64,000 nucleotides of DNA from Vulcanimicrobiota bacterium (GTDB lineage Bacteria; Vulcanimicrobiota; JAJTBE01): NCBI GenBank assembly GCA_021107945.1, contig JAIORV010000187.1, positions 1 to 64,000 of the forward strand, read 5' to 3'. Each line of letters opens with the position of its first letter. Position 1 is the first letter of the stretch. The translations under genes were made by a program, and so were the position numbers. Under the pieces are notes generated by a model that was not told the origin of the DNA, searched no databases, and was given only the letters and a program-made list of their open reading frames with translations. This document shows positions 1-14,960 of this stretch, one piece after another.

Positions 1-463
1 AACCGCTCCCGCCCCCATAATCTCGACATCCTGAGAGCTTAAACGAATGTGAATGGATTTTAATCGGGTGGTTAGAAGCCTATAAAATCTACCTCCCACC
101 TCAACTTAACCGTTTCAACGGTTTTTTAATGATATAAACCACTGAAGTGGTTAGGACGCTGTAGTGGTGGGGTTTACACTCAATTCACCACAATAAATTG
201 TGGTGCTGTCTTAAACCCCTTATAACGCCTGTTATCACCTGAAAAACACCTGTTATCACCTCAAAGCACTTAAAATAATTTCTATTACTTCTCAAGAAAT
301 TCACATGTGAGAAATATGAGTATTCATATCGTTTATTTGGGGAAGAAACTTTATACTATTGTTTTACATAACCTTATCCAATTAAATCACAAACTGAGAT
401 AATTTTGTATAAACGTAAAAACGCGGATCTGGCGTAATTGCCAAAACCCGCATTAAATATAAG
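1..463. other. Non-coding flank left of the integrated element
   Basis: No credible gene is seen. The stretch holds three different short palindromes (108-123, 137-152 and 186-205). It also has a direct repeat of CCTGTTATCACCT at 228-240 and 249-261, and a hairpin followed by a T-run near 417-451 that reads on the minus strand. The first palindrome, AACCGTTTCAACGGTT, is followed by six T and could act as a plus-strand terminator. Confidence 0.6.
417..451 (-). terminator. Probable original terminator of the tRNA-Ala gene
   Basis: On the minus strand, immediately downstream of the tRNA 3' fragment, GCGG and TGGC pair with GCCA and CCGC around an AATTAC loop. A run of five T follows. Before integration this hairpin would have lain 13 bases after the tRNA-Ala 3' end. 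The element now separates it from the tRNA by 12.8 kb. The pairing is seen directly; the role is inferred. Confidence 0.6.
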
Positions 464-505
464 TGGAGCTGGACGGGATCGAACCGACGACCTCTTGCAT
501 GCCAT
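464..505. repeat. attachment-site repeat (distal copy, tRNA-Ala 3' fragment)
   Basis: This 42-bp sequence is identical to 13235-13276 and corresponds to the 3' part of tRNA-Ala from the anticodon loop to the discriminator base. The next base differs (A here, G in the intact gene). The rest of the acceptor and D-arm sequence is missing, so this is a displaced 3' end and not a tRNA gene. The integrase gene lies 39 bp away, the usual arrangement for a tRNA-integrating island. Confidence 0.93.
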
Positions 506-544
506 ACAATTTATCCAATTGAGCAAACAGGCATGAATACTGCG

Positions 545-1606
545 TTATCGGACTACGTATTTTTGACATGGGACATATTTGGGACGAATTTTAGAATATT
601 CAATATCCTGCATATTCTGTTGAAATTTCTTCGATAACTTTTCCACTGCATTTTTCCTGTGGTCAGGTGATAGGTGGGAATATCTCATTGTCATATTTAT
701 TGTGGCATGTCCCATTAATTCTTTGACAGTGGCAAGATCAATTCCTTCCATAACGAGATAAGAAGCGAATGTATGACGGAGATCATGGAAACGAAAATTT
801 GTTATGTTTGCTCGGTTAACTGCACAATTAAAGGCTTTCTTGAAATCTTTAACCGGGAATATCATTCCATCCTCTTCTGTGTCATTAATCCATTTGGATA
901 ATAAAGAAAATAAATTCTCATTAATAGGAATATCCCGGCGTTTTCCACTTTTCGATTCTTTGACTGATATTAGCTTGTTGTCAAGGTCTATGTCCTCTGT
1001 CCTCAATGAAAGGATTTCTCCTTTTCTCATTCCTGTATTCAAAGCCATGACAACGGCAAGTTTCAAATATGGAATTCTACATTCATTCAGGAGGGTGGTT
1101 AATTCCTCATGGGATAGATAGCGTATTCTTCCCGGCGGTTCCGCTAACTTCTTTATATTGTCCATTGGATTATTATTAGCTTTACTCCATTTGATAGCCG
1201 TCCTGAAAAAATGGTTCAATGTAGATAATTCCCTGTTAACAGTGGAGGCGGAAACCTCTTTAAGACGTTTTACTTTATACTCCTCTATCAAAAAGGGCGT
1301 AATTTCGGACAAGAAAAAATCCCGGAATGACCTGGTAAGGGGTATTAAGTTATAGGAATGAGTTCTTGCGGTGTTTTCTTTCTTTGTAGCGTCGGCATGC
1401 TCTTTAAATTTCTCCGCAAAATCTCCGAATGTAATCTCCTCCGGCTTTTCAATCCCGAATCTTCTCTCAATAATATCAGTTTTTCTCTTTGCGAGTAACT
1501 TCTCCGCCAACTTCCTGTTATTTGTCCCGGTGGATTCTTTATGGCGTTTTCCTTGGGCATCGGTGTAATCCAGGTAATAAGTTCCCTTCCTCTTGAAGAT
1601 TCTCAT
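545..1606 (-). CDS. int: tyrosine recombinase integrase
   Basis: This site-specific recombinase of 353 residues is expected to join the element to the tRNA-Ala 3' end and, with an excisionase, cut it out. An N-terminal AP2-like arm-binding segment (about 1-55) is followed by a SAM-like core-binding domain (60-155) and a catalytic domain. The catalytic set is complete: R194 in TGMRKGE, H274 and R277 in FHDLRHTF, H300 in LMGHA and nucleophile Y309. The start overlaps the stop of the upstream zinc-finger gene by 4 bp, so the two are translationally coupled. The 3' end lies 39 bp from the attachment repeat and itself contains two TGGGAC repeats that recur at the other end of the element. Confidence 0.95.
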   Translation of the reverse strand: MRIFKRKGTYYLDYTDAQGKRHKESTGTNNRKLAEKLLAKRKTDIIERRFGIEKPEEITFGDFAEKFKEHADATKKENTARTHSYNLIPLTRSFRDFFLSEITPFLIEEYKVKRLKEVSASTVNRELSTLNHFFRTAIKWSKANNNPMDNIKKLAEPPGRIRYLSHEELTTLLNECRIPYLKLAVVMALNTGMRKGEILSLRTEDIDLDNKLISVKESKSGKRRDIPINENLFSLLSKWINDTEEDGMIFPVKDFKKAFNCAVNRANITNFRFHDLRHTFASYLVMEGIDLATVKELMGHATINMTMRYSHLSPDHRKNAVEKLSKKFQQNMQDIEYSKIRPKYVPCQKYVVR

Positions 1607-2781
1607 TGGTCATTCCCTCCGTCCTGCTTCTCCTTTATCATAGCGATAATATCATTGATAGTTTTGTTGGATTTACCTTTGATATATCCATCATAGACAC
1701 CCGGGTAATTGTCTTCGAATTGCTTTATGTCAACCCCGTGTTGGGAAAGGAGTTTTTCTAATTTTCTCTTCTTCTTTGAATACTTTTTTCGGCAGTGATC
1801 TGAACAGGTTTCTTGGTGTCCTCTTGTTTTGGGAGAAAATATAATTCCACAGTATTTACACATTCTAATTGTCTTCTTCCCTGCTAATACATGGTAAAGG
1901 AGGATTCCCATCCCTTGGGCAAAGTTGTTTGGTTTGATATGACTAACAAGGTGGGAGAGATAGAAATTAATAGTGAAGCTGACTCCTTTGAGCAGGTCAT
2001 TAATCCTATCGGAAACTTTGTTTAGGTGATTTTTCATATATTCATTTATTTTTATGATTGCAAATGCATAGTCAATGTGTTTATTCCATCGCGCTATATA
2101 TTTTTGTTGAAACTTTGCGTGTTCTCCTATGTGTTTGGAGTAGATTGTCTCCCGGTCTTTAATCGGTGAATAAACATTCCTGAAATTTGTTTCGATTTCT
2201 TTTTTTGTTAACGGAAATACTATAGAGAAGGGGGCTTTGTTTTCAAGAGTATGTCCTTGTTTATCCGTTATCTTAATAATACCTTCTCCCATCTTCTTCT
2301 CCCTAGGCTTACTAATAATTCTGATAATTGATTGCATAATTGAAATGTCATATTCTACACCGTATATTGTTTGTTTTATAATCTCACCGTCTTTGTGTGT
2401 TGCTTCTGTGTTACCTGGTAATCCAAAAGAATTTACGAAGTTGGTTAACCCTTCTATATCCTCAATGGATAATGAATCGATTTCATTACAAATATCAGCC
2501 AGTGATTTATCATAAAATTTCTGGTCAGTCCCTCTATAAGTTATTTTACACTCCTGGGGATTAGGACTAAACTTATACTCGACGGTGGTTACTTCCTGAT
2601 GGGTAATTCCCTTCCCATTTATCATTTCTACTTTTTCTGGTGATGGTTTATATACAAATTCATCACCTTCCACAACAAGCGAAGCCTTAAAGCGAATTAA
2701 TGTTTGTGGAAAAACACTGTTTTCTAGCGAATCTATTTCTGGATAAACACTGTTTTTTTCAAACGGAGGCTCTATTGGCAT
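1603..2781 (-). CDS. zinc-finger protein coupled to the integrase
   Basis: This protein of 392 residues has no clear family assignment over its first 300 residues. Near residues 305-340 it has a treble-clef-like zinc finger, with C-x2-C in CKYCG and then C-x3-C in CSDHC, followed by a very basic stretch (RKKYSKKKRK). CGNR-type fingers and many phage-encoded fingers look like this. It is the first gene of a two-gene minus-strand operon with the integrase (ATGA overlap) and is divergent from the XRE gene across a 120-bp control region. It could be a recombination directionality or regulatory factor. DNA or RNA binding is inferred from the finger; the role is unknown. Confidence 0.75.
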   Translation of the reverse strand: MPIEPPFEKNSVYPEIDSLENSVFPQTLIRFKASLVVEGDEFVYKPSPEKVEMINGKGITHQEVTTVEYKFSPNPQECKITYRGTDQKFYDKSLADICNEIDSLSIEDIEGLTNFVNSFGLPGNTEATHKDGEIIKQTIYGVEYDISIMQSIIRIISKPREKKMGEGIIKITDKQGHTLENKAPFSIVFPLTKKEIETNFRNVYSPIKDRETIYSKHIGEHAKFQQKYIARWNKHIDYAFAIIKINEYMKNHLNKVSDRINDLLKGVSFTINFYLSHLVSHIKPNNFAQGMGILLYHVLAGKKTIRMCKYCGIIFSPKTRGHQETCSDHCRKKYSKKKRKLEKLLSQHGVDIKQFEDNYPGVYDGYIKGKSNKTINDIIAMIKEKQDGGNDQ

Positions 2782-2901
2782 AGCGTTTCACTTCCTTTCT
2801 AAAAGAATCGAAGGGGGGGACAGATAATGACGTTTCCTCCCTTTTGTCTTTTAATATAGCATGCGGGAAAGTATAAGTAAAGAAAAAAAGGAGGTAGAAA
2901 A

Positions 2902-3114
2902 ATGTTTGAGGTGACGAAACTACGAGAAGAGAAAAAATGGTCAAAAAGTGAACTTTCCCGGCGATCCGGTCTGAATCTTCCACTGATTTCCCAACTGGAA
3001 AGCGGGAAAATCTTCCCCTATCCCGGCTGGAGGAAGAAAATTGGTAAAGCCCTGGAAGTTAAGCCGGATATACTATTCCAGGAGGTAAACGAGGATGACA
3101 AACCCTCTGAATAA
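2902..3114 (+). CDS. XRE-family helix-turn-helix regulator
   Basis: This 70-residue protein is almost entirely a Cro/CI-type HTH: LREEKKWSKSELSRRSGLN holds helices 1-2, and the recognition helix lies in PLISQLESGKIFP. The start ATG follows AAAGGAGGTAGAAAA, a strong ribosome binding site. It is the first rightward gene and is divergent from the zinc-finger/integrase operon, the usual place for the switch repressor of a phage or satellite. The next gene starts 20 bp before its stop. It lacks the C-terminal sensor domain of a classical CI, so it is a Cro-like or minimal repressor. Confidence 0.85.
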   Translation: MFEVTKLREEKKWSKSELSRRSGLNLPLISQLESGKIFPYPGWRKKIGKALEVKPDILFQEVNEDDKPSE

Positions 3115-3406
3115 AGTCATATATAATCTGGAATCCCGTTTGGAAAGGGCGGAGGATGTAGATCAAGCCCTTAGACTGACTGACCGGATTCTTGAAGCTT
3201 ATTCCCGACTTCCTGAGAGGCAAAAACTTTGGGGATTGGAAGAAACAGCGGAATACTTGGGTTTAAAGCCCGATACAATCCGAAAATTCTGTTCACAACA
3301 GAAAATCCCTCACATAAAACTTGGATCCCGTTGTAGATTCGAACCGGGGAGAATTAAAAAGTGGGTAATATCACGAGAGATCAAAGCCCATAGGGCATGG
3401 AGGTAG
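3095..3406 (+). CDS. MerR/excisionase-type helix-turn-helix protein
   Basis: This 103-residue protein has an N-terminal helical part (1-45) and a C-terminal excisionase-family wHTH. The key run is LWGLEETAEYLGLKPDTIRK, then HIKLGSRCRFEPGRIKKWV, the standard layout of a helix-turn-helix with a wing. The start ATG is 9 bases after AGGAGG and overlaps the end of the XRE gene, and the stop is 4 bp before the primase gene. In satellites an AlpA/Xis-like activator often sits here, between the repressor and the primase. An activator of the rightward operon is therefore a reasonable guess; a second excisionase is the alternative. Confidence 0.8.
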   Translation: MTNPLNKVIYNLESRLERAEDVDQALRLTDRILEAYSRLPERQKLWGLEETAEYLGLKPDTIRKFCSQQKIPHIKLGSRCRFEPGRIKKWVISREIKAHRAWR

Positions 3407-3410
3407 TGGC

Positions 3411-6005
3411 ATGATTAGCACAATAAGCCAAATAAAAGCAAGAGTATCCATCCTGGATGTTATTTCTTGGAATGGTGTTAGCCTTAACGGCAGGGGTAAA
3501 ATTCCTTGCCCACTGCCGGGGCATGATGACAAGGATCCCTCTTTCTTAGTTTATGAGAAGACTAATTCATTTAACTGTTTCGGATGTCACCGGGGCGGTG
3601 ACTTAATTACTCTTCATGCGTTACTCAAAGGAATTTCAAACAGTGAAGCGATCAAAGAACTTGCGCACAAATTTAACATCCCGATGGGGAACTTCGATCC
3701 GGTAAGATATAAAAAACAGCAAGACGAAAAAGCCCGGGTTCAGGAAGTCTTCAATGCTTTTCAAAAGCTATGTAAAGATGAATTAAAAAATAATAATAAT
3801 ATGCAGGCGTTTTGTGTGAAGAAATGGGGATTCGGCAGGGATATACAGGAGAAATTCGGCTTCGGATATTGCACGAAGGCGATATATTCAAAACTTTTTA
3901 AGACCATCAAAGCGAAGCGACTTAAACAAGCAGGACTCCTGGGAGAAACAGGATGGAAAGTATTTGAGAACCGTATTGTTTTACCGTATTTTGATTACTC
4001 TAACAAAACTGTTTACTTTATCGGAAGGCTAACAAAGCCCGAAAAATGGGGAGATATAGACGCGCCAAAGTATGTTAAGAGTCTAACGAAAACGGAGAAG
4101 AACCCGAATGTATCAGAAACCGTTAAGAACGTGTTATATATAATTCGAGGATCGGGAGAAATTGTATATAACACAGAGGGGATCGCGGATGCAATTTCGA
4201 TTCACCAGGCTACAGGGGTAACGGTTATAGCACCTGTTACGGTTTCTTTCAATAGTAAAGATATTCCAAAAATAGCCACTGTAGCAAAGCGATTTCATGA
4301 AGTAATAATTATAAATGATAACGAGGTAAACGAGAGCGGAGAGAAGGGCGCGCACAAGACCGTTCATGACCTGCGAAAGCACGGCGTTACCGGTATTAAA
4401 CTGATAGAACTATCACGTCCGGAAGGTGTTGAAAAAATTGATATAAATGACTTCCTCCGGGATCCTACAGAGGAGAAAAAGCAGGAATTCCAAGGACTTC
4501 CACGGCGGAAACTATGGGAGATAATGGCAGAAGAATTAACACTTGATAATTTGATAGATAAAATTGAACCTATATTTAAGGAAATATTGGAAGAAGAGGG
4601 GGAAACAACAGGAAAAATCCTTGCAAAAAAACTTCTTCGTAATATGAAAATAAAAGAGCGTGATCTTCCCGATAATATGAAGTTCTTCTCAAACCTTGTA
4701 AAAGCTAAAAAACAAGAAAAAGAGGAAACCATTGACCAGAAAATTATAAAAAAAGTGGAGGAACAGAAGGAACCCCTGTCCGATGAAGACCGTCAAAAGG
4801 CTGAAGAAATGGCGAAGAACCCACGGATATTTGAGGAAATCAGCACCGATATTAAGACTCTTGGTATTGTGGGAGAGGAAGATAACAGCTTAATGGTATA
4901 TCTTGCCGGAACTTCCCGACTCATGAGCAAACCTTTAAAGTTAAACCTCCGGGGCGATCCTTCGACAGGAAAAAATTACATTACCGATGGCGTTTTATCA
5001 CTTTTCCCGGAGAGTGAGAAAGTTAATGCGTCACGAATGACCAGGCAAGCATTAGCCTATATGGAGAAGGAGGCACTGAAACATAAAATCCTTCTTATCC
5101 AAGAAGAAGAGGGATCTGAGGATGGAAATTACAACCTCCGAATTTTACAATCGGAAGACGGAATTATAACACATGTTGTAGTTAAAGATCCAAAAACAGG
5201 GACACCGAAAACTGTAAAAATGGAAGTGCTAGGCCCAACCGCGACAATTACTACGACAAACAAAATAAAGCTATATGAAGACAACGAAACCCGAATAATT
5301 GTTTTATATGTCGATACCTCCGAGAAACAAACAAAACGAGTGTGTGAAGCGGTTAAACATAAAGAGAGTATTTACCAGGGAGATAAAGAAGAGCAAAAAG
5401 AGCAGATCCGGCGGAAACATCATGCCTTTCAACAGACACTCGAACCTCTTGATGTTGTTATCCCATTTTATAAATATATTAATTTTCCCACAAAACAGAA
5501 CAGAGCGCGACGCGACATTACGGCGTTTTCTGCAATAATAAAAGCTGTTGCATTTATTAATCAAAAACAAAAAGAGATAAAGCCCGAAGGATACATTGAA
5601 GCTGATATTAATGACTACGGCATAGCTTATGGAATATCGAAAAAGATATTAGACCGGACACTTTCAGGCATGCACCCGAATGCCCGAAAACTTCTTGTCA
5701 TACTCCAAGACCTTTGGGAGAGAAAGATCGAGAAATTAACACCAAAACAGGCACTTGACTATAGCTTCACACACAAGAATATAGAAAGAGAAACTGGGTT
5801 AAGTGGGAGCTTCATTCGGAAATATATGGAAGCCCTGCGACAAACGATATATCTGAAAGTGGCAAACAAGGGCGGGAAAGGAGCAACTCGTGAATACCGA
5901 TACAGGATGGATATTCAACCGGAGGATGACATTCAAGAAAAGGGCGTCGGGATCACGACACCGGAGGAGTTGGCAAAACTTTTAGAAGGGAAAATAGTGA
6001 TTTAG
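3411..6005 (+). CDS. primase-helicase replication protein (CHC2, Toprim, P-loop ATPase)
   Basis: This 864-residue protein is the likely replication initiator of the element. Residues about 25-65 form a CHC2 zinc-binding primase finger (CPLPGHDDKDPS, then CFGCHRGGD). The middle has a Toprim-like catalytic region with IINDNEVNESG and IDINDFLRD near residues 300-345. From about 500 there is an ATPase-like module with a modified Walker A, GDPSTGKN, where the usual final Thr/Ser is Asn, then LLIQEEEGSE as probable Walker B. A C-terminal helical region (about 740-830) may bind DNA. The fusion resembles Pri-Rep proteins of satellites and plasmids. A nested inverted-repeat region follows directly at its 3' end, as in SaPI replicons. 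Confidence 0.9.
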   Translation: MISTISQIKARVSILDVISWNGVSLNGRGKIPCPLPGHDDKDPSFLVYEKTNSFNCFGCHRGGDLITLHALLKGISNSEAIKELAHKFNIPMGNFDPVRYKKQQDEKARVQEVFNAFQKLCKDELKNNNNMQAFCVKKWGFGRDIQEKFGFGYCTKAIYSKLFKTIKAKRLKQAGLLGETGWKVFENRIVLPYFDYSNKTVYFIGRLTKPEKWGDIDAPKYVKSLTKTEKNPNVSETVKNVLYIIRGSGEIVYNTEGIADAISIHQATGVTVIAPVTVSFNSKDIPKIATVAKRFHEVIIINDNEVNESGEKGAHKTVHDLRKHGVTGIKLIELSRPEGVEKIDINDFLRDPTEEKKQEFQGLPRRKLWEIMAEELTLDNLIDKIEPIFKEILEEEGETTGKILAKKLLRNMKIKERDLPDNMKFFSNLVKAKKQEKEETIDQKIIKKVEEQKEPLSDEDRQKAEEMAKNPRIFEEISTDIKTLGIVGEEDNSLMVYLAGTSRLMSKPLKLNLRGDPSTGKNYITDGVLSLFPESEKVNASRMTRQALAYMEKEALKHKILLIQEEEGSEDGNYNLRILQSEDGIITHVVVKDPKTGTPKTVKMEVLGPTATITTTNKIKLYEDNETRIIVLYVDTSEKQTKRVCEAVKHKESIYQGDKEEQKEQIRRKHHAFQQTLEPLDVVIPFYKYINFPTKQNRARRDITAFSAIIKAVAFINQKQKEIKPEGYIEADINDYGIAYGISKKILDRTLSGMHPNARKLLVILQDLWERKIEKLTPKQALDYSFTHKNIERETGLSGSFIRKYMEALRQTIYLKVANKGGKGATREYRYRMDIQPEDDIQEKGVGITTPEELAKLLEGKIVI

Positions 6006-6010
6006 TGCTT

Positions 6011-6236
6011 TTAAATGTTTTAGACATTTTTTTACCTATAGCCATGCGGGTTTGAGTGTAAATGCTTTACTGTTTCAGAAAAGAGCATGGGGTAAACACA
6101 CACACAAAATTATGATAAAAATCGTGTGTGTGTAAATAGGTATATGTATTTTCGAAGCAATGAAACAATTAGCCATGAACGGCGTGAAATAAGGGCAAAA
6201 AATGTCTATGACAGGTTAAAACATTTCGAAACATTT
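6011..6236. other. putative replication origin with nested inverted repeats
   Basis: Directly after the primase-helicase gene lie nested inverted repeats. The outer arms TAGACATTTTTT (6021-6032) and AAAAAATGTCTA (6197-6208) are perfect complements. The inner arms are ten-base alternating AC (6096-6105) and GT (6124-6133) around an AT-rich 18-base loop. The hexamer AAATGT/ACATTT occurs at 6013, 6024, 6200, 6221 and 6231, clustered on both flanks. SaPI origins are known to lie 3' of rep and to have two sets of 6-bp iterons flanking an AT-rich zone, so an origin is the best reading. The left flank could also serve as a terminator of the primase gene (AAATGT/ACATTT hairpin plus T-run). Confidence 0.5.
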
Positions 6237-6250
6237 AACAGGAGGTAAAT

Positions 6251-6949
6251 ATGCTAATAAACGAGATATATCAACGGTTGGAGGCGATAAAGCACCCTGA
6301 AACAAATGTTTTATGTCCTAAAACAGCAGAAAATTCTCCTGTAGTTGTGAAAAGTTGTGAAGAAATCCCTCCTGCAAAACTGGAGCCACAGCAAGAGCAG
6401 AAACAAGAGCGGTCTCCTGGGGCGGTAAAAATTCCTCTTCGACTTCACGAGCCTGGGGCGCGTCCATTCTCTCTTCTGTGTCCAAAATGTGGAGCGACTG
6501 ATAATTTCTTCTTCCCTGCGTTGGAGCCGGCAGGTAATTCAGGCGGTGATCTTCTCGTGATCTGTGGCTATTGCAAGAGCAAGCTGATACCGGAAAAACA
6601 TTATTCAGGGACGGCACGGGAGATATATGAGAAGCTGGATCCTGTGAAAGAGGAGTCACCAGGGCAATATCCGGCACGTCCTCTTATAAAGCCATGCCCT
6701 GTTTGCGGTGGGTGTTTATTTTGGGAGAACTTGAACGGCGTTGTGTCCTGTATCAAATGTATCCCTCTATATAACAAATGGGCGGTTCTGCGTTACTGGA
6801 AGATTGAGGAAGGCGGGCAAGCCCTGGAAGTGGAGCATGGGCATGATTATGAGAAGGCAAGGCAAGAATTATTTCAGCATGCCCGGTCCCCGGGGCTTGT
6901 GGAGAGGGCAAAAAAACAAGAGAATGAAGCGGAAGAAACTCCATTTTAG
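6251..6949 (+). CDS. two-zinc-ribbon protein with SSB-like C-terminal tip
   Basis: This 232-residue protein has two separated zinc ribbons: LLCPKCGATD with ICGYCKSK at about 79-120, and PCPVCGGCLF with SCIKC at about 150-172. The second is reminiscent of Lar-type restriction-alleviation proteins, including the NKWAVLRYW that follows it. It starts after a strong AGGAGG and ends in acidic residues followed by EETPF, which resembles the DDIPF tip of bacterial SSB. It begins the operon downstream of the putative origin. A role in replication or in countering host DNA defences is inferred only. Confidence 0.75.
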   Translation: MLINEIYQRLEAIKHPETNVLCPKTAENSPVVVKSCEEIPPAKLEPQQEQKQERSPGAVKIPLRLHEPGARPFSLLCPKCGATDNFFFPALEPAGNSGGDLLVICGYCKSKLIPEKHYSGTAREIYEKLDPVKEESPGQYPARPLIKPCPVCGGCLFWENLNGVVSCIKCIPLYNKWAVLRYWKIEEGGQALEVEHGHDYEKARQELFQHARSPGLVERAKKQENEAEETPF

Positions 6950-6967
6950 GCGAAAGGCGGTAACATT

Positions 6968-7174
6968 ATGTTTATTATTGTGGGAGAAATGGGGGAAGGG
7001 GCGGTTCTGTGTCGAGAATGCTTTAATGAGTTTTTGAATATCACAACGGAAGCGGGACTCGAAATATCCTTCTATTGCACATTTATCGAAGGCGGTCATT
7101 GTGATACTTGCGGAAAGGGCAGTCAGGACAGAAGGGACAGAAATGTAATGGGTGTATCATTAAACTTAAATTGA
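6968..7174 (+). CDS. small protein with two cysteine pairs
   Basis: This 68-residue hypothetical has CREC near residue 18 and CDTC near residue 48, which together could bind one zinc ion. It starts 18 bp after the previous stop, with AAAGGCGG seven bases upstream of its ATG, and precedes the SpoVG-like gene by 13 bp, so it is probably translated as part of the same operon. No family is recognised. The codon pattern and spacing support a real gene. Confidence 0.6.
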   Translation: MFIIVGEMGEGAVLCRECFNEFLNITTEAGLEISFYCTFIEGGHCDTCGKGSQDRRDRNVMGVSLNLN

Positions 7175-7187
7175 GGAGTGATAAGCA

Positions 7188-7517
7188 ATGTTAAAGATAC
7201 TCAAATTCAAGTCTATGGATAGCGGGAGCCTTCGAGGTTTCCTGTCTATTGAATCGGATAAAATGAGAATGATATTCAACGATCTGCGACTTATGGAAAC
7301 AAATGGCACTGAATGGATAGCGTTCCCGGCGAATAAGTATGAGAATGATGAAGGGAAGACTCGTTACAGTCCGTATGTGAAATTCACCAGTAAGGCGATC
7401 AGTAAGGCATTCACGGAGCAGGTTCTACAAGCCCTGGAAGAATGGAAGAAATTGTACGGCGAAAATGTCGAGATAATTGCGGAGGACGTGGACACCGGGG
7501 AGATCATGCCATTTTGA
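7188..7517 (+). CDS. SpoVG-like nucleic-acid-binding protein with SSB-like tip
   Basis: This 109-residue protein resembles SpoVG, a small site-specific DNA/RNA-binding protein: an initial strand-rich part ending in the FNDLRLME region, then TEWIAFPANKY and a C-terminal helix (KAISKAFTEQVLQALEEWKK). SpoVG shows the same order in its IRVIDGNNGLFVAMPS core. It ends DVDTGEIMPF, similar to the acidic-IPF tip by which SSB recruits repair and replication proteins. The ATG follows GAGGAG. The next gene encodes a protein of similar size that also ends in -PF, so the two may be divergent paralogues or partners. Assignment to the SpoVG fold is by eye. Confidence 0.65.
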   Translation: MLKILKFKSMDSGSLRGFLSIESDKMRMIFNDLRLMETNGTEWIAFPANKYENDEGKTRYSPYVKFTSKAISKAFTEQVLQALEEWKKLYGENVEIIAEDVDTGEIMPF

Positions 7518-7554
7518 GGAGTATCCCGGCAATAATAATAACAGGAGGTAGAAT

Positions 7555-7854
7555 ATGAAAAAAATTATATTAGCAGAGGGGAGTTTATTTGGGAAGTTTG
7601 CATTTAAAAGCGAATTATTAGGAGGTTTAAGAATAAATGGCTTGGATCTTCGAGTAATGAAAAGCGACAGCGACAGCGAAGGGGGCGAAATAGTGCTAAT
7701 TCTCCCCGATGAAATATCATTCCCCGATAAGAAAAAAGAGGAAGAATTTATCCAAGAATTTCGATGGGCTTGTATTGCTCATTTACAAGGAGCTTTATTA
7801 TTTTTTCAGGAGAAAAAACTTTCTGTTTCATCCGGGGAACTTATCCCATTTTGA
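7555..7854 (+). CDS. small protein, possible divergent SpoVG-like partner, SSB-like tip
   Basis: This 99-residue hypothetical follows a strong AGGAGG. It has the same overall plan as the preceding SpoVG-like protein: an N-terminal strand-rich half with INGLDLRVMK, a middle LPDEISFPDK where SpoVG has its LFVAMPS strand, and a helical C-terminal half. Its last residues are SGELIPF, very close to the GEIMPF end of its neighbour. No database family is recognised by eye. It is most simply read as a second member of a pair of element-encoded ssDNA or RNA-binding proteins. Confidence 0.55.
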   Translation: MKKIILAEGSLFGKFAFKSELLGGLRINGLDLRVMKSDSDSEGGEIVLILPDEISFPDKKKEEEFIQEFRWACIAHLQGALLFFQEKKLSVSSGELIPF

Positions 7855-7919
7855 GCATATTCCCGGCGTTGGCAAAATGGTTCCAGGCAATAATGATAAT
7901 AATAACAGGAGGTAACATC

Positions 7920-8816
7920 ATGGCAAGGCGTAAATGGAGTTGGACAAAAAAACAGTTTGACAAGTTAAACAAAGTTCAAGAGATACTTGAAGAACTTGAT
8001 GAATACAAGCCGTTAACACTCCGACAAGTCTATTATCAACTTGTTGGCAAGGGATATATTGAGAATAGGGTTTCTGAATATGGCATGCTTTCAGGTTTAC
8101 TCAAATATGCAAGAATAGCGGGTTATATTCCCTGGGAGGATATTGAAGACCGGGGGAGGATATTCCATAATTTAACGGGATTTGAAGACTATCAGGAATT
8201 CATAAGTGCTTCATATTATCATTTTTTAAGAGGATACCGGCGTAATTTACTTCAAAAGCAAGGTAAATATCTCGAAATATGGATAGAAAAAGACGCGTTG
8301 AGCAGTATCTTTACAAGAACGGCAAAATATTACACTGTCCCGGTAATAGTTTGTAGAGGATTTAATTCAGTTAGTTTTCTGAATGCTTTTAAGGAGAGGA
8401 TTCAGGCGGAAGATCACCCTGTTGTTCTTTATTTTGGGGACTTCGATCCATCAGGCATGGCAATGTTAAATTCAAGTAAGATAACACTGGAGAATGAAAT
8501 GAATGTTCAAGGCGTAGAGTTTAAGAGAATAGCATTGAGCAAGGAGGATATTTTCGAATACAATTTGCCACATAATCCAAGTGCTATAAAAAAGAAGGAT
8601 ACTCGAACAAAGAAGCATGTAGCACAATACGGTGAAATAGCGGTGGAATTGGACGCGTTACCTCCGGCAATATTAGAAGAGAAAATCAGGAATGCAATTG
8701 AAGCGGAATTGGATATGAATTTTTTTAAGGAAGAGAAGAGAGAGGAAGAAAACGAGTTTGACTTGTTAAACGATATAAAAAAGGGGGTAGGTGAATTCCT
8801 GCAAAAGGTAGCTTAA
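7920..8816 (+). CDS. Topo mini-A: Spo11/Topo VI A-like topoisomerase-type protein
   Basis: This 298-residue protein starts at the ATG after AGGAGGTAACATC. The N-terminal winged-helix region carries TLRQVYYQL, which matches the R-x-x-[YF]-Y motif holding the catalytic tyrosine of Topo VI A and Spo11, here most likely Y39. A Toprim domain follows with E123 in WIEKDAL and D174/D176 in YFGDFDPSGM. The C-terminal ELDALPPAIL resembles the terminal helix of type IIB A subunits. No B (GHKL ATPase) subunit is nearby. Stand-alone A-like proteins on bacterial and archaeal viruses are known as Topo mini-A, and this fits that group. It could nick or cut DNA during replication or packaging, but activity is unproven for the family. 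Confidence 0.85.
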   Translation: MARRKWSWTKKQFDKLNKVQEILEELDEYKPLTLRQVYYQLVGKGYIENRVSEYGMLSGLLKYARIAGYIPWEDIEDRGRIFHNLTGFEDYQEFISASYYHFLRGYRRNLLQKQGKYLEIWIEKDALSSIFTRTAKYYTVPVIVCRGFNSVSFLNAFKERIQAEDHPVVLYFGDFDPSGMAMLNSSKITLENEMNVQGVEFKRIALSKEDIFEYNLPHNPSAIKKKDTRTKKHVAQYGEIAVELDALPPAILEEKIRNAIEAELDMNFFKEEKREEENEFDLLNDIKKGVGEFLQKVA

Positions 8817-9083
8817 AAATGGATGTTGATATTACACTATCTCCGGAGTATAATATTACCAAGTGAAACTGTTTCAGGAGGAAGTTTTTACAGTTATAAA
8901 AGGCACTTCTGGGGGGGTAGAATCCATTTCAACAAGCCTGGAGGGATAATGTTTAACCTGGAAGCAATTCAACGGCTTCTTAGGACGATATTCTGCGTTT
9001 CTGGGTAGTAAATATGATATTGAATTAACGATTTTATTCTATTGGAAGTGGGTTAACAAAAGTAACATGAAGAGGTCATAAAC

Positions 9084-9728
9084 GTGGCTCAAACTAAGGT
9101 AATAAAATTCAAAATAGATGAAAGCATTCTTCTTCCTCGGCTATTTAATGAAACTGGCAAGGGTTATTATTTCTTCTGTAAATATGCAATGATGGGAATA
9201 AACCGGAGTTTAAGGAAGTTATCAAAAACAGGGGGGAGAAGTTTTAGCCAACTAAGGCGTTGGTCTAAAAAGAACCAGTGGGTAAAAAGGGCGCAGGGAT
9301 ATGATAAAGCATTCCTCCAATGGGAATTAAGACAGATACGAGAGGAAGCAATTGAAGCCCGGAAACGTCGGATAAAACAACAGATGTTAAGACAACAAAC
9401 AGGGCGGAAACGGATACAGGCGATAAGCACGGATGGACAGGATTTCAAAGATGTGTTATCGGTGGAGACTGCATTAAAGATGATAGATAGCGGAGAGAAG
9501 GGGGAACGGATTGAATATGGTGAAATCGATGAAGCATTGCAGGAATCGAATAATGCTAATATTTCTTTGTCTATAGATAAATCCGGCGGTGTTGTTGAAT
9601 CCATAAAAGTTGGAATCAATCAGAAAGCATTATTGAAGGAGAAATTTCTCGAAGCAAGCCCGGAAGCGCAAAGAAACTTCATTCATGCTCTACGGGGGAT
9701 TCTTCCACAAAATAAATTGAGTTTTTGA
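9084..9728 (+). CDS. probable phage terminase small subunit
   Basis: This 214-residue protein has a GTG start after AGAGG. Residues about 40-80 (SLRKLSKTGG, then FSQLRRWSKKNQWVKRAQGY) match the layout common to many small terminases: a short HTH followed by a W-S-x-K-x-x-W-V-x-R-A-x-x-Y/W-D signature and a long basic coiled coil (about 85-130). Small terminases select the DNA to be packaged. A satellite-encoded one redirects helper-phage packaging to satellite DNA, which would explain its presence here without a large terminase. A generic HTH protein is the alternative. Confidence 0.7.
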   Translation: MAQTKVIKFKIDESILLPRLFNETGKGYYFFCKYAMMGINRSLRKLSKTGGRSFSQLRRWSKKNQWVKRAQGYDKAFLQWELRQIREEAIEARKRRIKQQMLRQQTGRKRIQAISTDGQDFKDVLSVETALKMIDSGEKGERIEYGEIDEALQESNNANISLSIDKSGGVVESIKVGINQKALLKEKFLEASPEAQRNFIHALRGILPQNKLSF

Positions 9729-10054
9729 AGTCTATAAAAAAAGGGGGAACAATCCGACAGCAGGGACTCTTATAAAGCCCATAAACAGCGTTTAACAAGC
9801 CCAAATGAATAGAAGACATACCTGGGAGCCTTTTGAATGCAAATTAAGGCGGTGTCCTGTGGCAGGATAGGGATATATTTGAACGAATCAGGAAATAATT
9901 CAATATTGACACTCAAAAGATAACATTTCCCCTGTCAAAAGATAATGATATATCCTCCGATTGAACTATTGCCCGGGGCGGGATACCCTGAATTATAATA
10001 GACTAACAAAAGGGGAAAAGATAATATTGACAAAAGATTCTTATTTAATATTAA
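9729..10054. promoter_or_regulatory. control region with CAAAAGAT repeats
   Basis: This 326-bp gap between the terminase and the cargo genes holds four copies of an AAAAGAT core (near 9915, 9937, 10015 and 10032). Two of them form a larger repeat of ATATTGACA followed by a CAAAAGAT copy. The last ATATTGACA contains a likely -35 TTGACA (10027-10032) with TATTAA (10049-10054) sixteen bases on. This probably starts separate transcription of the cargo genes, with the repeated motif as a regulator-binding site. Confidence 0.5.
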
Positions 10055-10075
10055 ATGAGTGGCGGAGGTATAATT

Positions 10076-10471
10076 GTGTCCGACAAAGATAAAAAATCTA
10101 TGTGGAATTTCATCATTATTATATTGGTAATAATATCTATATTCTTCTTTGTCCTATTGCTTCTGAAATATTCTGATAGTAAAGAGAAATATAATAACAT
10201 TCACGAGGCAGTTAAAGCTAGAGATATGCAGGCAGTAAAAGGTCTTATTAAAAAAAAGCATGAACTCGTTAATTCGAGAGATGAACATTTTTATACACCA
10301 TTGCATTGGGCGGTTTTTTCAGGCAAAAAAGACATGGCAAAGTTTCTTTTAGACAGCGGGGCGGATATTAATGCGAAGGATATGAATGGAGTTACACCAT
10401 TGAATATAGCGACTTCTGCAAGTGAGAAAGAAATGGTAGAATTCCTCCACAGACATGGGGCTAAAGAGTAA
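10076..10471 (+). CDS. membrane-anchored ankyrin-repeat protein
   Basis: This 131-residue protein is read from the GTG that has GGCGGAGG seven bases upstream; an in-frame ATG 21 bp earlier has no such site. It has a short basic N-terminus, one transmembrane helix (about 9-29, FIIIILVIISIFFFVLLLL), then about two and a half ankyrin repeats with the hallmarks TPLHWAVFSGKKDMAKFLL and GADINAKDMNGVTPLNIA. Ankyrin repeats bind other proteins, and the topology places them in the cytoplasm or periplasm next to the membrane. It begins the cargo segment of the element. Superinfection exclusion or helper interference would suit this position, but that is a guess. Confidence 0.8.
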   Translation: MSDKDKKSMWNFIIIILVIISIFFFVLLLLKYSDSKEKYNNIHEAVKARDMQAVKGLIKKKHELVNSRDEHFYTPLHWAVFSGKKDMAKFLLDSGADINAKDMNGVTPLNIATSASEKEMVEFLHRHGAKE

Positions 10472-10543
10472 TAAAGTACAAACCTGAAAAGCAAGGCGGG
10501 ACTGTGGGACTCCACCTATACCACCTTGGGACTGGAGGAAGGG

Positions 10544-10693
10544 ATGGAGATAGTATTGACGAAAAAAAAAGTTGTAACGGAGGAAGTGCTATATGATAAA
10601 AAACAAAACAAAGAGGATCTTTATCACTGTTATAGCAGTCAAAACCGGGAAGAAGAAATTCGCAAAGAGCAAATGAAGATGAAAGAATTCTAA
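10544..10693 (+). CDS. small hypothetical protein (49 residues)
   Basis: A short reading frame starts at an ATG immediately preceded by GGAGGAAGGG, a very strong ribosome binding site, and ends just before the zinc-ribbon gene. The product is highly charged (VVTEEVLYDKKQNKEDL, then REEEIRKEQMKMKEF) and predicted helical. No family is recognised. It could be a small regulator or the surviving end of a larger gene. Confidence 0.4.
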   Translation: MEIVLTKKKVVTEEVLYDKKQNKEDLYHCYSSQNREEEIRKEQMKMKEF

Positions 10694-10731
10694 TCTTAAA
10701 ATATATCGATAATTGATAGGAGGAATATAAT

Positions 10732-11271
10732 ATGGCAGAAAACAAAAATAAATGTCCATTTTGTGCAGAAGAGATTAAAATCGAGGCGATTAAATGTCCT
10801 TATTGTGGAGAATTTTTTACTCATACCTGGAAATTTTTTGCTGGCAAAGTACTTTGTGTTGTTGGATTTTTTCTACTAATTATGTGTGCGGTCTTATTAG
10901 CAAAATTTTATACTATGGATACCACTGTAGAAGGAATATCTGAAAAACGTATTCACAATATAGGCCTTATAGATGAGAAAAGAGCAGGTATTGATCTGGC
11001 ATCAGTTTTGGGTATAATTGGTGCGATTCTTTTTTCGGCAGGTGTTATAATTCAACCATCTATAACTCAGAGAAAACAAGAAAAATCTAAAGAACCATCC
11101 CAACAATCAATTATATCGAAAGTAGGAGAAACATTTTCATCTTCCAAAAAATTGACATTCGAATGTCCTCAATGTCAAGCTCCTCTGTCAGTTGATGCCG
11201 AACATGCCGGTAAAGAAATTCAGTGTCCGAATTGTGAAGCTAAAATCGAAGTGCCTATGGAATTAACTTGA
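10732..11271 (+). CDS. membrane protein with N- and C-terminal zinc ribbons
   Basis: This 179-residue protein starts after AGGAGG. An N-terminal zinc ribbon (CPFCAEEIKIEAIKCPYCG, residues 7-25) is followed by two transmembrane helices (about 38-60 and 92-113). A C-terminal zinc ribbon (about 144-175) has FECPQCQAPL and IQCPNCEAKI. Both ends should lie in the cytoplasm. The downstream gene, also zinc-ribbon plus membrane, overlaps or nearly abuts it, so the two are probably made together. No enzymatic motif is seen. It is cargo of the element with unknown function. Confidence 0.75.
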   Translation: MAENKNKCPFCAEEIKIEAIKCPYCGEFFTHTWKFFAGKVLCVVGFFLLIMCAVLLAKFYTMDTTVEGISEKRIHNIGLIDEKRAGIDLASVLGIIGAILFSAGVIIQPSITQRKQEKSKEPSQQSIISKVGETFSSSKKLTFECPQCQAPLSVDAEHAGKEIQCPNCEAKIEVPMELT

Positions 11272-11288
11272 AAGAAGGGTATTTAACA

Positions 11289-12014
11289 ATGCCAATGATA
11301 AAACTCTCCTGTAAATCCTGCGGAGCCAAACTTGAGCTTACCGATGACATAGACCGCTTCTCCTGCGCTCATTGTGGTTCGGAATGGATTGTTAACAAGA
11401 GCGGTGGGATTGTTAGTTTAAAAGCTGTGGAAGAAAGCGTGAAACATATTGAGGAATCCTCCCAGGCAACCGCAGAGCATACGGAAATATTGGCAGATGA
11501 AATACGAAAGAGAAAAATTCAAGAGAAAATTAACAAGTTAAAATTTAAAAAATTTAAAATTAATAAAAATCCAAAAATAAAGAACCCTGAATACGAAAAA
11601 ACTTACAAAAAAGCTAAAGAAGAATTTGATTTAAAATATAAACAAGTAATGGGTTCAGGTAAATGGAAGTTAATTTGGAAGATTTCTTTAATTACCTCAT
11701 TAGTGATAACAATTTTTTTCTATTTTTTTCAAAATACATTTGTAAATATTATTTTGGGTTACGAACCAGGTTTTGGAGTTGGGTTTAGTTTAATTCACTT
11801 GTTACTTATTTTGTTATTTTCATTTCTCTTAACATTGTTTGCCCTTATAATTATACTAAAACTAAAGTTTCCAACTCTTGATATTCCAGCTGATATTCCA
11901 GCTGCTATTCCAGACCCTGAACAACAAGAAAAAAACCTTGCTCTAATAAAAGAAATTGATAATGAAATAGCCGACTTAAAGGCAAAACTTCATGATATTG
12001 AAAATAGAATATGA
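11289..12014 (+). CDS. zinc-ribbon membrane protein
   Basis: This 241-residue protein is read from an ATG with AGAAGGG upstream; an in-frame TTG at 11268 overlaps the previous stop and is less likely. The N-terminus has a zinc ribbon (CKSCGAKLELTD, then FSCAHCGSEW), followed by a charged helical region. Two hydrophobic helices lie at about 120-145 and 155-185, and the C-terminal helix (EIDNEIADLKAKLHDIENRI) is coiled-coil-like. It shares its architecture with the preceding gene and probably works with it at the membrane. The role is unknown. Confidence 0.7.
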   Translation: MPMIKLSCKSCGAKLELTDDIDRFSCAHCGSEWIVNKSGGIVSLKAVEESVKHIEESSQATAEHTEILADEIRKRKIQEKINKLKFKKFKINKNPKIKNPEYEKTYKKAKEEFDLKYKQVMGSGKWKLIWKISLITSLVITIFFYFFQNTFVNIILGYEPGFGVGFSLIHLLLILLFSFLLTLFALIIILKLKFPTLDIPADIPAAIPDPEQQEKNLALIKEIDNEIADLKAKLHDIENRI

Positions 12015-12016
12015 AG

Positions 12017-12060
12017 TAAAAGGAAACAGCCGATCTCCTCCGTAAGCACGGGGGGAAGAA
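12017..12060 (+). pseudogene. C-terminal remnant of an ankyrin-repeat gene
   Basis: A 14-codon open stretch directly after the zinc-ribbon gene translates to KETADLLRKHGGKK and a stop, the typical last helix pair and tail of an ankyrin-repeat protein. It has no start and is out of frame with the gene before it. It suggests that an ankyrin gene once ended here and lost its upstream part when the two zinc-ribbon genes arrived, or that cargo genes were shuffled. Confidence 0.5.
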
Positions 12061-12389
12061 ATAATAACCTTGAATTATTCTCAAACGGCAATATTCAGAA
12101 TTCCACCGATGGATCCGGTTCCGGATGGGCGGGACGGACTGCACAGAGATAAAATTACAAGTGGCAAATAATGGGATAAAATAAGGGTTCCGGTATTGTT
12201 TCGAATTGTCTTTTTTTCGAAAGGAAGAGCAAGAAACTGTTTCAATTTACCCTCTGAAATGAGTAATATTTCTCAATATATAGAAAGAAATTAAAATCAC
12301 TCCTTCAAACCTCTTTTGATCGTCATTTGCGAAAAATACATCCTTTCACAAAACAAGTATTCATGCGGGTTTCCGGCGTTTATGTTAAA

Positions 12390-12421
12390 TTGGATCGTCA
12401 AATGACCATTTGACGATCCAA
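12390..12421. repeat. perfect 15-bp inverted repeat with 2-base spacer
   Basis: TTGGATCGTCAAATG is followed by AC and then its exact complement CATTTGACGATCCAA. A related half-site GATCGTCATTTG lies about 70 bp upstream. There is no T-run, so it is not an intrinsic terminator. It is more likely an operator or replication/excision protein site of the element. Confidence 0.75.
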
Positions 12422-12508
12422 AGTGCTTTGTTTCGTTTTTGCTATTTATTGTATGTTTGCGAAGCGTTTCTTGTATATTCACTCCAACAAGTAATTAATA
12501 ATAAGCTA

Positions 12509-12537
12509 TTGTAATTCAAAAAGGGATAATGTATAAT
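12509..12537 (+). promoter_or_regulatory. promoter of the excisionase-like gene
   Basis: A -35-like TTGTAA (12509-12514) and a perfect TATAAT (12532-12537) are separated by 17 bases. The start codon of the HTH gene follows 26 bp later behind GGAGGT. Confidence 0.6.
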
Positions 12538-12563
12538 ATAAAAAGGAAGGAGGTATTCTGCTA

Positions 12564-12773
12564 ATGGAAGAAATGCTAACAACTGTTGAAGTGGCAAAGA
12601 TACTCAAAATGAATCGGCAAACGGTTTCAAACCTCATGAAGCGGGGGGCGATCCCTGCGGTGAAGATAGGCATGAGATGGAGGGTAAGGAAATCCGACCT
12701 GGATAAACTAATGACACCGGGAGAAGAACAGGAGGACTCCAAAAGCACTGAAAAGCATGACGAGGACAAATAA
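12564..12773 (+). CDS. excisionase-family DNA-binding protein
   Basis: This 69-residue wHTH of the MerR/Xis type carries LTTVEVAKILKMNRQTVSNL, then AIPAVKIGMRWRVRKSDLDKL, the standard helix-turn-helix plus wing. An acidic tail follows. It stands alone behind its own consensus-like promoter, 460 bp inside the right end of the element and opposite the integrase end. This position and size fit the recombination directionality factor that would turn the integrase to excision; a transcription activator is the alternative. Confidence 0.8.
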   Translation: MEEMLTTVEVAKILKMNRQTVSNLMKRGAIPAVKIGMRWRVRKSDLDKLMTPGEEQEDSKSTEKHDEDK

Positions 12774-13234
12774 AGGCGAAATAATGGGGACAAATATGGG
12801 ACATATACCCTCTGGAATCCTGTGGTTAAGGGACTCATGGAAGGTGTTCTTTTCTCTTTTTTAAGCAATATCTGGGGATATTCAGGCAATTTATCGGGGG
12901 GATAAGAGATATTTTACAGAGGTATTTTCCACAGAAAAAAATATTTCGATATATAATCCGATGTTTTAAATGTAAAATTAATTTGGGACAAAAAGCGAAC
13001 TTCTCTTTCAGAAATTTCTCTCTTTTTCCTGGGGGACACTTTACTTCTCCGATTAGTATTCATGCGGGTTCAAGTGGGCAAGCATGAAAACTTTAAAATG
13101 AAGGAAATGTGGGACAAATTTGGGACAAAAAGTTTCCAAAACAGGGTAATTTTATGCTGTTTTACACCAAATATGACACGATATTCTGGAACCAAAAAAC
13201 CCACCGTTCCCTTGAAATGGCGGGCTTACTTTGA
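12774..13234. other. Non-coding right end of the element with repeated TGGGACA motifs
   Basis: No gene is seen. TGGGACA occurs at 12797, 12984, 13110 and 13121, plus a variant TGGGGACA near 12785, and GTATTCATGCGGGTT lies at 13056-13070. The same TGGGACA motif occurs at 569 and 580 (variant) at the opposite end, next to the other attachment repeat. These are probably arm-type integrase sites. Confidence 0.6.
13194..13224 (-). terminator. element-borne terminator downstream of tRNA-Ala
   Basis: On the minus strand, 11 bases past the tRNA 3' end, CCCGCC (13224-13219) can pair with GGTGGG (13205-13200) around a 13-base loop, followed by six T. It would replace the original chromosomal terminator that integration moved away. 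Confidence 0.55.
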
Positions 13235-13307
<73 letters not shown>

Positions 13308-13319
13308 ATGTCGAAGTAT

Positions 13320-13348
13320 ATGATAAATCAATTTCGCTTTTCTGTCAA
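13320..13348 (-). promoter_or_regulatory. promoter of tRNA-Ala
   Basis: On the minus strand TTGACA (13348-13343) and TATCAT (13325-13320) are separated by exactly 17 bases. The tRNA begins 12 bases downstream of the -10 box. Confidence 0.75.
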
Positions 13349-13877
13349 TAGGGATGGAAGATTTTTTTCAGGATTACGCTTATTATTTTGTGAAAATGGA
13401 GGAGAATTAAGGAGACATAGGCTTTTGGACAAAATTAATGAAATCCATTTCTTCTGCGGCGAGACACCGCAGCTACCCACATTGTTATTATGGTAGGGGC
13501 GGCGTCTCGCCGCCCAATTAAATCGTATTAAATAAGTTCTTTGGAGACCACTGATTTTATTAGACAGGAGTATTGGATGGTATTAGGCTAAAGTATTAAT
13601 ATTCATTAGACTAAAGTAAAAGCAAATGATTATACTATGGTATTAGGTGATTTAAAACTATTATAGTATTTCCAACAAGAGAGTTTTTGTGATATAAAAG
13701 TATTGAAAGAGATTAATTTGGTTTTCAAATAATTATTATTTGACGTTTAATCTCGTTGCTCTCTCTTTGCTTATCGGGAATCTACTACCTACAATTTGAT
13801 TCCCGATTTTTCTTTTTATATGTCTTTTTTACCAACCGTCTTTTCTTTGATTATTATCCGCATTGAAGACATAAGAT
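13349..13877. other. Non-coding stretch with GC-rich repeat and a plus-strand terminator
   Basis: No gene is supported. Near 13455-13515 there is an imperfect inverted repeat containing GGCGGCGTCTCGCCGCC, a dispersed-repeat-like sequence. A TA-rich zone follows, with nested inverted repeats (GAGATTAA to TTTAATCTC around a TCAAATAA/TTATTTGA hairpin, about 13711-13755). A clear intrinsic terminator comes at 13774-13817. With no plus-strand gene upstream, an unannotated small RNA ending there is possible. Confidence 0.5.
13774..13817 (+). terminator. intrinsic terminator
   Basis: TCGGGAATC (13774-13782) pairs with GATTCCCGA (13798-13806) around a 15-base loop, followed by TTTTTCTTTTT. It reads plus-strand, although the nearest upstream plus-strand gene is over 1 kb away. 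Confidence 0.65.
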
Positions 13878-14960
13878 TCAAGGAATGTAACTCCTCATTA
13901 TGTCCACCCTCATTAACTCCACTCCCTGGAACTCAAATATGAAACACCCCGGCTCCGCCCCCTTCGGAGGAAAGAAATCGGTGACTATATCCTCATCTTC
14001 CCCGGCCTGAACCGTATAATAGCCGATGTAATTCCCCACCCCAGGACCAAATGGATTCTCAAGAGCCGGAAGATTGCCGGAAATTCCCACGATATTCCCG
14101 GAATACCTGTTTCCCTTATCATCAGTCAGCACCAGGAAATAAGGCTCGACTTTTATGGGCTGCCTGAAGCCATTGCTCACCTGAATCACAATCCTGTAAC
14201 CGATAGGCTCTTTTGGGTTCAAAGTGCCGAATTGATAATCTGCACGATAACTCGCACTTATATTGTTCCTTATTTCTTTTATCTTTTCCAGGTTCTGCTT
14301 TTTTGCGGAGCTCTCCCCCTGATCGGGTTTGCCGGGAAGAATCCTTTTGCCGCAGGCGATTTGAAGCTCCGGGAGATAGACATAAGGTTCTCCCGTTTTA
14401 TACGCCCACCGCTCAATTCTCTTATTGTTGAAAACAGCGGTACCCGAGCTTCTATCCAGATTAAACTTCATCCCTGAATAGTCTGCAAATTCTTTTGCAT
14501 TCAGGAAAACATCGCGCTTGTATAAAATCGTGGAGAAATTCCGAGGTTCCTTACCCTCGACTTTCAATCGAATATTCCCGGATGAAGCAAGTCCGGGGTT
14601 GAGCATTCCGGGGTATAAAATGATATATTCACCTGATTTTGATTTATTGAACCGGACAAGGAAAAATTTGAAAAACGATTCAATCGGCACATAATGCGCG
14701 CCGTTTTGAAAAACCACATCCCCGTCAAACCGTATTCCGTTTATCCTTACATATTTCGAGTTCAATCCCGGTTGATAATCAAACCCGAATATTCTCTGCA
14801 GGTTAACCGTTCTGACATGATCCGTCTTTATATAACCGGTCTCGTATAACTTCCCGCCCATTTGAATCTTGATAACATTCGAAACCTGCGATTGAGCGGG
14901 CAGGAATAGGAGTGAAACAAGGGAGATTATGATTATGAGGATGATGTATTTTAGCTTCAT
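13878..14960 (-). CDS. secreted hypothetical protein with copper-amine-oxidase-N-like segment
   Basis: This 360-residue protein has a clear signal peptide (residues 1-25, hydrophobic core IILIIIISLVSLLFL, cut near AQSQ). The first half contains short repeats of a strand-rich unit, with GAHYVPIESFFKFFLVRF resembling the copper amine oxidase N-terminal (stalk) domain found in many exported proteins. The C-terminal half (about 235-355) looks like a beta-sandwich with no catalytic motif. No operon partner is seen. Export is well supported; the family is tentative. Confidence 0.7.
   Translation of the reverse strand: MKLKYIILIIIISLVSLLFLPAQSQVSNVIKIQMGGKLYETGYIKTDHVRTVNLQRIFGFDYQPGLNSKYVRINGIRFDGDVVFQNGAHYVPIESFFKFFLVRFNKSKSGEYIILYPGMLNPGLASSGNIRLKVEGKEPRNFSTILYKRDVFLNAKEFADYSGMKFNLDRSSGTAVFNNKRIERWAYKTGEPYVYLPELQIACGKRILPGKPDQGESSAKKQNLEKIKEIRNNISASYRADYQFGTLNPKEPIGYRIVIQVSNGFRQPIKVEPYFLVLTDDKGNRYSGNIVGISGNLPALENPFGPGVGNYIGYYTVQAGEDEDIVTDFFPPKGAEPGCFIFEFQGVELMRVDIMRSYIP

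Follow-up and report, generated by a model that had tools for sequence, protein, structure and literature searches.

The non-coding gap at 6006-6250 is the probable replication origin of a 12.8-kb mobile element integrated near the start of the window (the whole stretch of 64,000 nucleotides analysed here). We put the probability of this reading at about 0.6. The gap is 245 bases long and separates the stop codon of a primase gene (6005) from the next start codon (6251). Folding and repeat counts present it as one long imperfect hairpin. The first-pass annotation had placed a candidate origin directly 3' of the primase gene, and the location holds, the gap beginning right after the stop. As to whether the gap is an origin at all, the position, the type of protein encoded upstream and the direct repeats found at the same place in relatives argue in favor; the lack of conservation of the repeat words argues against.

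The element extends from 464 to 13276, its computed borders being exact 42-bp repeats at a tRNA-Ala(ggc) gene. The left attachment repeat (464-505) is a copy of the 3' part of the tRNA gene, and the right one (13235-13276) lies inside the gene itself (13233-13308). Between them are encoded a tyrosine integrase (545-1606, minus strand; PF00589, E 1.5e-37; phrog_1), a Cro/CI-type HTH regulator (2902-3114, plus strand; HTH_3 above the Pfam cut-off), an AlpA/excisionase-like HTH_17 protein (3095-3406, plus strand; PF12728, E 1.4e-9; phrog_66), the primase, and a terminase-small-subunit-like protein (9084-9728, plus strand; phrog_6299, E 2.1e-15). The PICI gene set of att repeats, integrase, xis/AlpA-like, primase-rep and terS-like genes is present in this one small element, and from its sequence the element appears satellite-like, with a gene order and a terS-like gene reminiscent of phage satellites. 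The subset of its ORFs that was scanned yielded no capsid or portal gene, and the SPP1-type portal family PF05133, the one portal family searched, has no match in the genome. The genome has no second copy of the primase or terS-like gene; its sole match to the element's primase is a distant DnaG-type one on contig 126.

Other genes of the element are less easily placed. The gene after the gap (6251-6949, plus strand) has AGGAGG ahead of its start codon and no assigned function; its product matches no Pfam family at E 0.01, the best being a below-cutoff match at E 0.046. The protein at 7914-8816 matches phrog_6247, a family annotated as DNA topoisomerase (the longer ORF 7764-8816 gives E 7e-62), and a Pfam search with it returned no family. 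The right end codes for an ankyrin-repeat protein and for another HTH_17 protein of excisionase type (10055-10471, 12564-12773).

The candidate initiator is an 864-residue protein (3411-6005, plus strand) with an unusual composition: a bacterial DnaG-type primase (CHC2 zinc ribbon, DnaG_N and Toprim) joined to an MCM-like AAA+ helicase. In the available text of PMC5862659, MCM helicases are mostly regarded as archaeal or eukaryotic, with phage and plasmid exceptions. Residues 4-412 are DnaG-like, with PF01807, PF08275 and PF13362 all above the Pfam cut-off and a match to the NCBIfam dnaG equivalog model below its own. The C-terminal 424 residues (441-864) match no Pfam family. Their AlphaFold model is confident (pLDDT 89.3, 45 sequences in the alignment) and resembles MCM helicases (Foldseek E 3.6e-9; VIA Z 23.2, rmsd 3.4 over 288 residues). 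As modelled, this half has an MCM-type AAA+ fold, and helicase activity is predicted from the fold alone. The structure model also contains a C-terminal winged-helix domain, presumed to bind the origin, at residues 778-831 (5742-5903, plus strand), with the pattern of helices at 338-342, 348-355 and 359-370 and strands at 375-379 and 388-391 of the model. Among the 45 alignment members, three match phrog_678, two phrog_270 and one phrog_345; phrog_678 and phrog_345 are replication initiation O-like and phrog_270 is replication initiation. For example, the C-terminal winged-helix region of the relative L189 matches phrog_270, phage replication initiation, at E 1.8e-5. We infer that the 3411-6005 product would act as the initiator. 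The alpha protein of phage P4, with ori/crr, is likewise a satellite's primase-helicase-origin-binding fusion, the likeness being one of description alone. As to the earlier label "Pri-Rep", the primase is of the DnaG type (CHC2/Toprim) and is joined to an MCM-like helicase; a SaPI-type identity is not established by the domains.

The nested inverted repeats first reported for the gap (12-bp outer arms, alternating AC/GT inner arms and five hexamers) are all there. The left outer arm TAGACATTTTTT (6021-6032, plus strand) pairs perfectly with its complement AAAAAATGTCTA (6197-6208, minus strand). Overlapping or flanking these arms are 10-bp half-sites, exact copies of AAATGTTTTA, at 6013-6022 (plus strand) and, inverted, at 6217-6226 (minus strand), and a further right half-site AAATGTTT at 6229-6236 (minus strand), 10 bp from the neighbouring one. 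Further in, a 10-bp (AC)5 tract (6096-6105, plus strand) pairs with an equally long tract that reads (GT)5 on the plus strand (6124-6133, minus strand). Hexamers of the AAATGT/ACATTT type occur five times in the gap, at 6013, 6024, 6200, 6221 and 6231; a sixth, beyond 6011-6236, is within a third exact AAATGTTTTA (6304-6313, plus strand) inside the next gene. AAATGTTTTA has exactly three copies in the 64 kb (6013, 6217 and 6304), all inside 301 bp, and among the 12 listed 10-mers with at least three copies in 320 bp it is the sole one that is neither tandem nor A-rich.

The inverted symmetry of the gap is beyond chance; its direct repeats are marginal. Inverted 7-mer pairs, pooled, number 18 against 4.1 expected, and none of 2000 dinucleotide shuffles scored as high; with the AC/GT tracts removed the count is 20 against 3.3, again unmatched in 2000 shuffles. 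Direct 7-mer pairs number 7 against 3.1 (P 0.09), rising to 14 against 4.7 (P 0.005) when the gap is extended to 6320. Five occurrences of AAATGT/ACATTT have a P of 0.0005 for that word and of 0.03 for any hexamer found at least five times. When one half of the gap is compared with the other, the gapped palindrome score is 14.7, against a shuffle mean of 8.0 and with 0/1000 shuffles reaching it. By number of repeat pairs the region after the primase gene comes second to that at 41644 among the 105 300-bp stretches compared behind the window's ORF ends. The 300 bp after this other ORF end (minus strand) contain 53 direct 7-mer pairs. Another repeat-rich site in the window is a 7-bp tandem array at 49157-49180.

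When folded, the 12-bp, AAATGTTTTA and AC/GT arms stack up within a single imperfect hairpin, about 200 nt long. The plus-strand fold has 80 pairs (68 Watson-Crick and 12 G-U). Computed as RNA, the gap has fold z values of -4.7 (plus strand) and -5.8 (minus strand), with 0/200 shuffles as low on either; computed as DNA, the values are -4.0 and -4.1, respectively. Among 234 230-bp windows starting in 1-14000, 6001-6230 has the lowest z, -6.4, and the runner-up is at -3.8. The AT-rich centre that had been described for the gap is confined to the 18 bases between the inner arms (6106-6123, 89% AT). Between the outer arms (6033-6196) the AT content is 62.8%, compared with 61.4% in the whole element, and 41% of the element's 164-bp windows equal or exceed it. 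The gap contains none of the element's 12 least stable 60-bp stretches.

Relatives of the primase-helicase are widespread and distant. Scans of viral_contigs and genome_contigs for literal peptides of this one protein recovered none. Profile-based scans yielded distant relatives only, with a best identity of about 36%; for the closest ones, full-length identity is about 28%, and identity across the helicase half mostly 30-36%. A close relative of the whole element was not found by either type of scan. Conservation of the hexamers, which the first-pass annotation had proposed as a check, was not seen, close relatives of the element being missing from the scans and distant ones having other words. 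In genome_contigs, 282 relatives were confirmed and 78 loci retained; with plasmid, viral and same-phylum additions the set came to 98 loci, 94 gene ends and, at a redundancy of about 75%, 57 non-redundant loci, 47 of which had usable upstream regions. Word length was fixed once at 7, without tuning. For L176, whose gap a spurious ORF had masked, a gap of 352 was entered manually on the basis of the annotation.

Repeats are enriched directly behind the gene across this family. Repeats of 7-mers reached P<=0.01 within 300 bp of the gene's end in 16/57 loci (the window included), compared with 2/47 upstream regions and 16/141 other gene ends. Where the gap is at least 90 bp, and with the window excluded, the proportion is 11/28 (Fisher 0.0002 against upstream regions and 0.0009 against gene ends); with shorter gaps it is 2/20. 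When orientations were separated, using a second draw of controls (100 other gene ends), direct repeats at P<=0.01 followed 13 of the 28 genes with such a gap, as opposed to 1/47 upstream regions and 5/100 other gene ends, with rank tests of 5e-6 and 9e-7, respectively. Inverted repeats have no clear excess (3/28 against 2/47 upstream and 3/100 controls), nor does folding (z<=-3 in 3/28 against 6/100; rank test 0.26), and the idea of a long hairpin common to the family was dropped for this lack of folding excess. A direct-repeat excess at P<=0.01 is absent from 15 of the 28 relatives with a gap and from 25 of the 28 whose gap is short or undefined.

The repeated words are particular to each locus. 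L171, a viral contig and the only full-length match of the first profile scan, has a dense AACTTCGTT/AACGAAGTT array after the gene, while ACCTTGC occurs seven times in L160, CAACTTG 11 times in L210 and CCGACCA five times in L200. Words that differ by lineage would be expected if initiator and origin co-evolve. A shared core, ACTTNG, was considered from the first 15 loci (2.47 against 0.48 per 303 bp) and abandoned on 41 held-out loci (0.71 against 0.54 per 303 bp); it has no occurrence in the 303 bp after the window's primase gene. Because distant relatives have an excess of direct repeats right after the gene, an origin 3' of its initiator is supported. The window resembles the family in the position and presence of repeats and differs in their architecture; since its strong signal is inverted and that of the relatives direct, the comparison speaks for the location and for repeats being there, not for the hairpin.

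Several relatives have features of their own. In 52 of the 57 loci a recombinase-like match follows on the gene's own strand, no more than 2.5 kb downstream. A recurrent plasmid unit consists of an HTH regulator, the DnaG/MCM-like primase-helicase and a tyrosine recombinase (L178 5447-9410, L179 5467-10166 and Leptospira L174-L177), and in two cases annotated RHS or TpsA2 genes lie upstream of it. Outer inverted arms of 17-22 nt, about 215-237 bp apart, flank the post-primase gap of three of the four Leptospira plasmids (L174, 8927-8948/9185-9206; L175, 8944-8963/9179-9198; L176, 8923-8939/9177-9193), with TTCGCC-type repeats between them. Photorhabdus thracensis DSM 15199 has at least eight chromosomal loci of the family (L210-L212, L214, L219, L236, L244 and L245).

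Origins behind initiator genes are described for several other systems, each of which is compared here from the part of its source that was available. For PICIs, PMC6092414 gives the outline and an origin 3' of the initiator. Like the SaPI/PICI origin, the gap is a non-coding region directly 3' of a primase/initiator gene with repeats at both ends, and like a PICI the element has an integrase, an AlpA-like gene, a primase-rep, a terS-like gene and att repeats. Unlike those elements, it has a DnaG-type primase, an MCM-like helicase and a rightward HTH regulator, and no helper phage was identified. The SaPI origin plan that had been invoked for the gap applies to its ends, with half-sites in 6013-6032 and 6197-6236; it does not extend to the middle, which is not AT-rich, or to the orientation of the repeats, where inverted symmetry (0/2000 shuffles) dominates over direct iterons (P 0.09). 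In SCCmec, repeats in a putative origin between cch2 and ccrC are bound by the C-terminal domain of the initiator-helicase, and for Cch2 binding direct repeats mattered and inverted ones did not (PMC7581432). SCCmec shares with the window the presence of both inverted and direct repeats right behind the gene of an initiator-helicase, and with the wider family of the window's protein a recombinase gene that comes next; in the window, by contrast, no recombinase follows the gap, the primase is fused (SCC has CCPol-MP) and the sequence words are other ones. In pRN1 a large stem-loop directly downstream of a primase-helicase-winged-helix gene is needed for replication, and its sequence is poorly conserved within its family (PMC4234260). 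This arrangement of a stem-loop behind a gene for primase, helicase and winged helix is like that of the window, although pRN1 has an archaeo-eukaryotic primase, an SF3 helicase, a stem-loop of about 100 nt and an archaeal host, compared with a DnaG-type and MCM-like protein and an imperfect hairpin of about 200 nt here. By analogy, the hairpin-like symmetry of the gap appears closer to the pRN1 origin than to a direct iteron array. From their available texts, neither the PLE satellite (PMC7145576) nor the Leptospira plasmids of PMC4338851, whose vectors depend on different rep genes for replication, is a close parallel.

Other functions could be proposed for the gap. A hairpin in an RNA made from the stretch that separates the primase gene and the operon at 6251 might be an attenuator, a processing site or a small RNA, and the RNA fold far below shuffles on either strand, the co-directional genes on both sides and the 12 G-U among 80 pairs of the plus-strand fold are consistent with this. 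We regard it as unlikely, since both strands fold strongly, as in a DNA palindrome, and give no clear strand preference. The gap also has no Rfam family at gathering score and no intrinsic terminator in a search for one, and relatives have no clear folding excess at this place. Palindromic half-sites would also suit a dimeric regulator: one of the element's HTH proteins (2902-3114 or 3095-3406) could bind the inverted ACATTT sites and control the co-directional genes downstream of the gap. This role is quite improbable. A simple operator does not usually have arms some 150-200 bp apart. In the divergent region 2782-2901, the likely place for a repressor operator, there is no exact AAATGTTTTA, the only near match (2900-2909, one mismatch) spanning the start codon. 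One of three promoter-like matches in 5900-6400 is in the gap, facing left, and shuffles give 1.3.

Two further explanations receive still less weight. The relatives' repeats could be binding sites of the tyrosine recombinase that follows, with the window's gap as a relic or variant, in keeping with the 52/57 loci that have a recombinase-like match downstream and the inverted arms that bound 3/4 Leptospira gaps ahead of the recombinase gene. The window's integrase, however, lies on the opposite strand at a distance of 4.4 kb, its att repeats are elsewhere (464-505, 13235-13276), and a repeat excess occurs in two of three loci that have a gap and no recombinase found downstream (the window and L171, not L156_2), a small sample; we think this explanation very unlikely. 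Least probable of all is that the palindrome arose by chance, is neutral or is left over from a small inverted-repeat insertion. In favor of this, the gap is a single known instance whose sequence is not conserved; against it, 0/2000 shuffles matched its inverted symmetry, and the 5.56-Mb genome contains no second copy, only matches of 19-29 bases. The best of these, on contig 33, turned out to be ordinary sequence on inspection, and mobile-insertion copies were not found in the organism's own genome. DNA searches with the gap gave five weak matches of 26-31 bases in phages and no match in plasmids; a 16-base pattern from the gap occurs in at least 120 stretches of viral_contigs and was taken as chance.

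If the gap is the origin, replication might proceed as follows. The element would be excised by its integrase, as the att repeats and the gene suggest. The protein encoded upstream would bind the gap at both ends, likeliest through its C-terminal winged helix on ACATTT-type half-sites. Judging from its fold, the MCM-fold AAA+ domain would form a ring and open the DNA at the hairpin or AT core, and the first primers would come from the DnaG-type domain that this chain also carries. A host polymerase would presumably elongate these after excision.

The stretch 3411-6250 is a candidate minimal replicon of a PICI-like element. Fusions of the DnaG/MCM-like type usually adjoin a tyrosine recombinase and sometimes polymorphic-toxin genes. 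A name for the fusion family was not found in the literature searched, a weak negative as that literature lacked most subscription papers. Tentatively, and with the odds somewhat against it, fusions of DnaG-type primase and MCM-like helicase in many bacterial phyla may mark a broad class of integrative elements, so far without a name, that replicate themselves and each have a fast-evolving cognate origin right behind the gene, and in the window's lineage an extended palindrome may have replaced the iteron array. For this protein family the comparative result offers an origin-finding rule, which is to look straight behind the gene.
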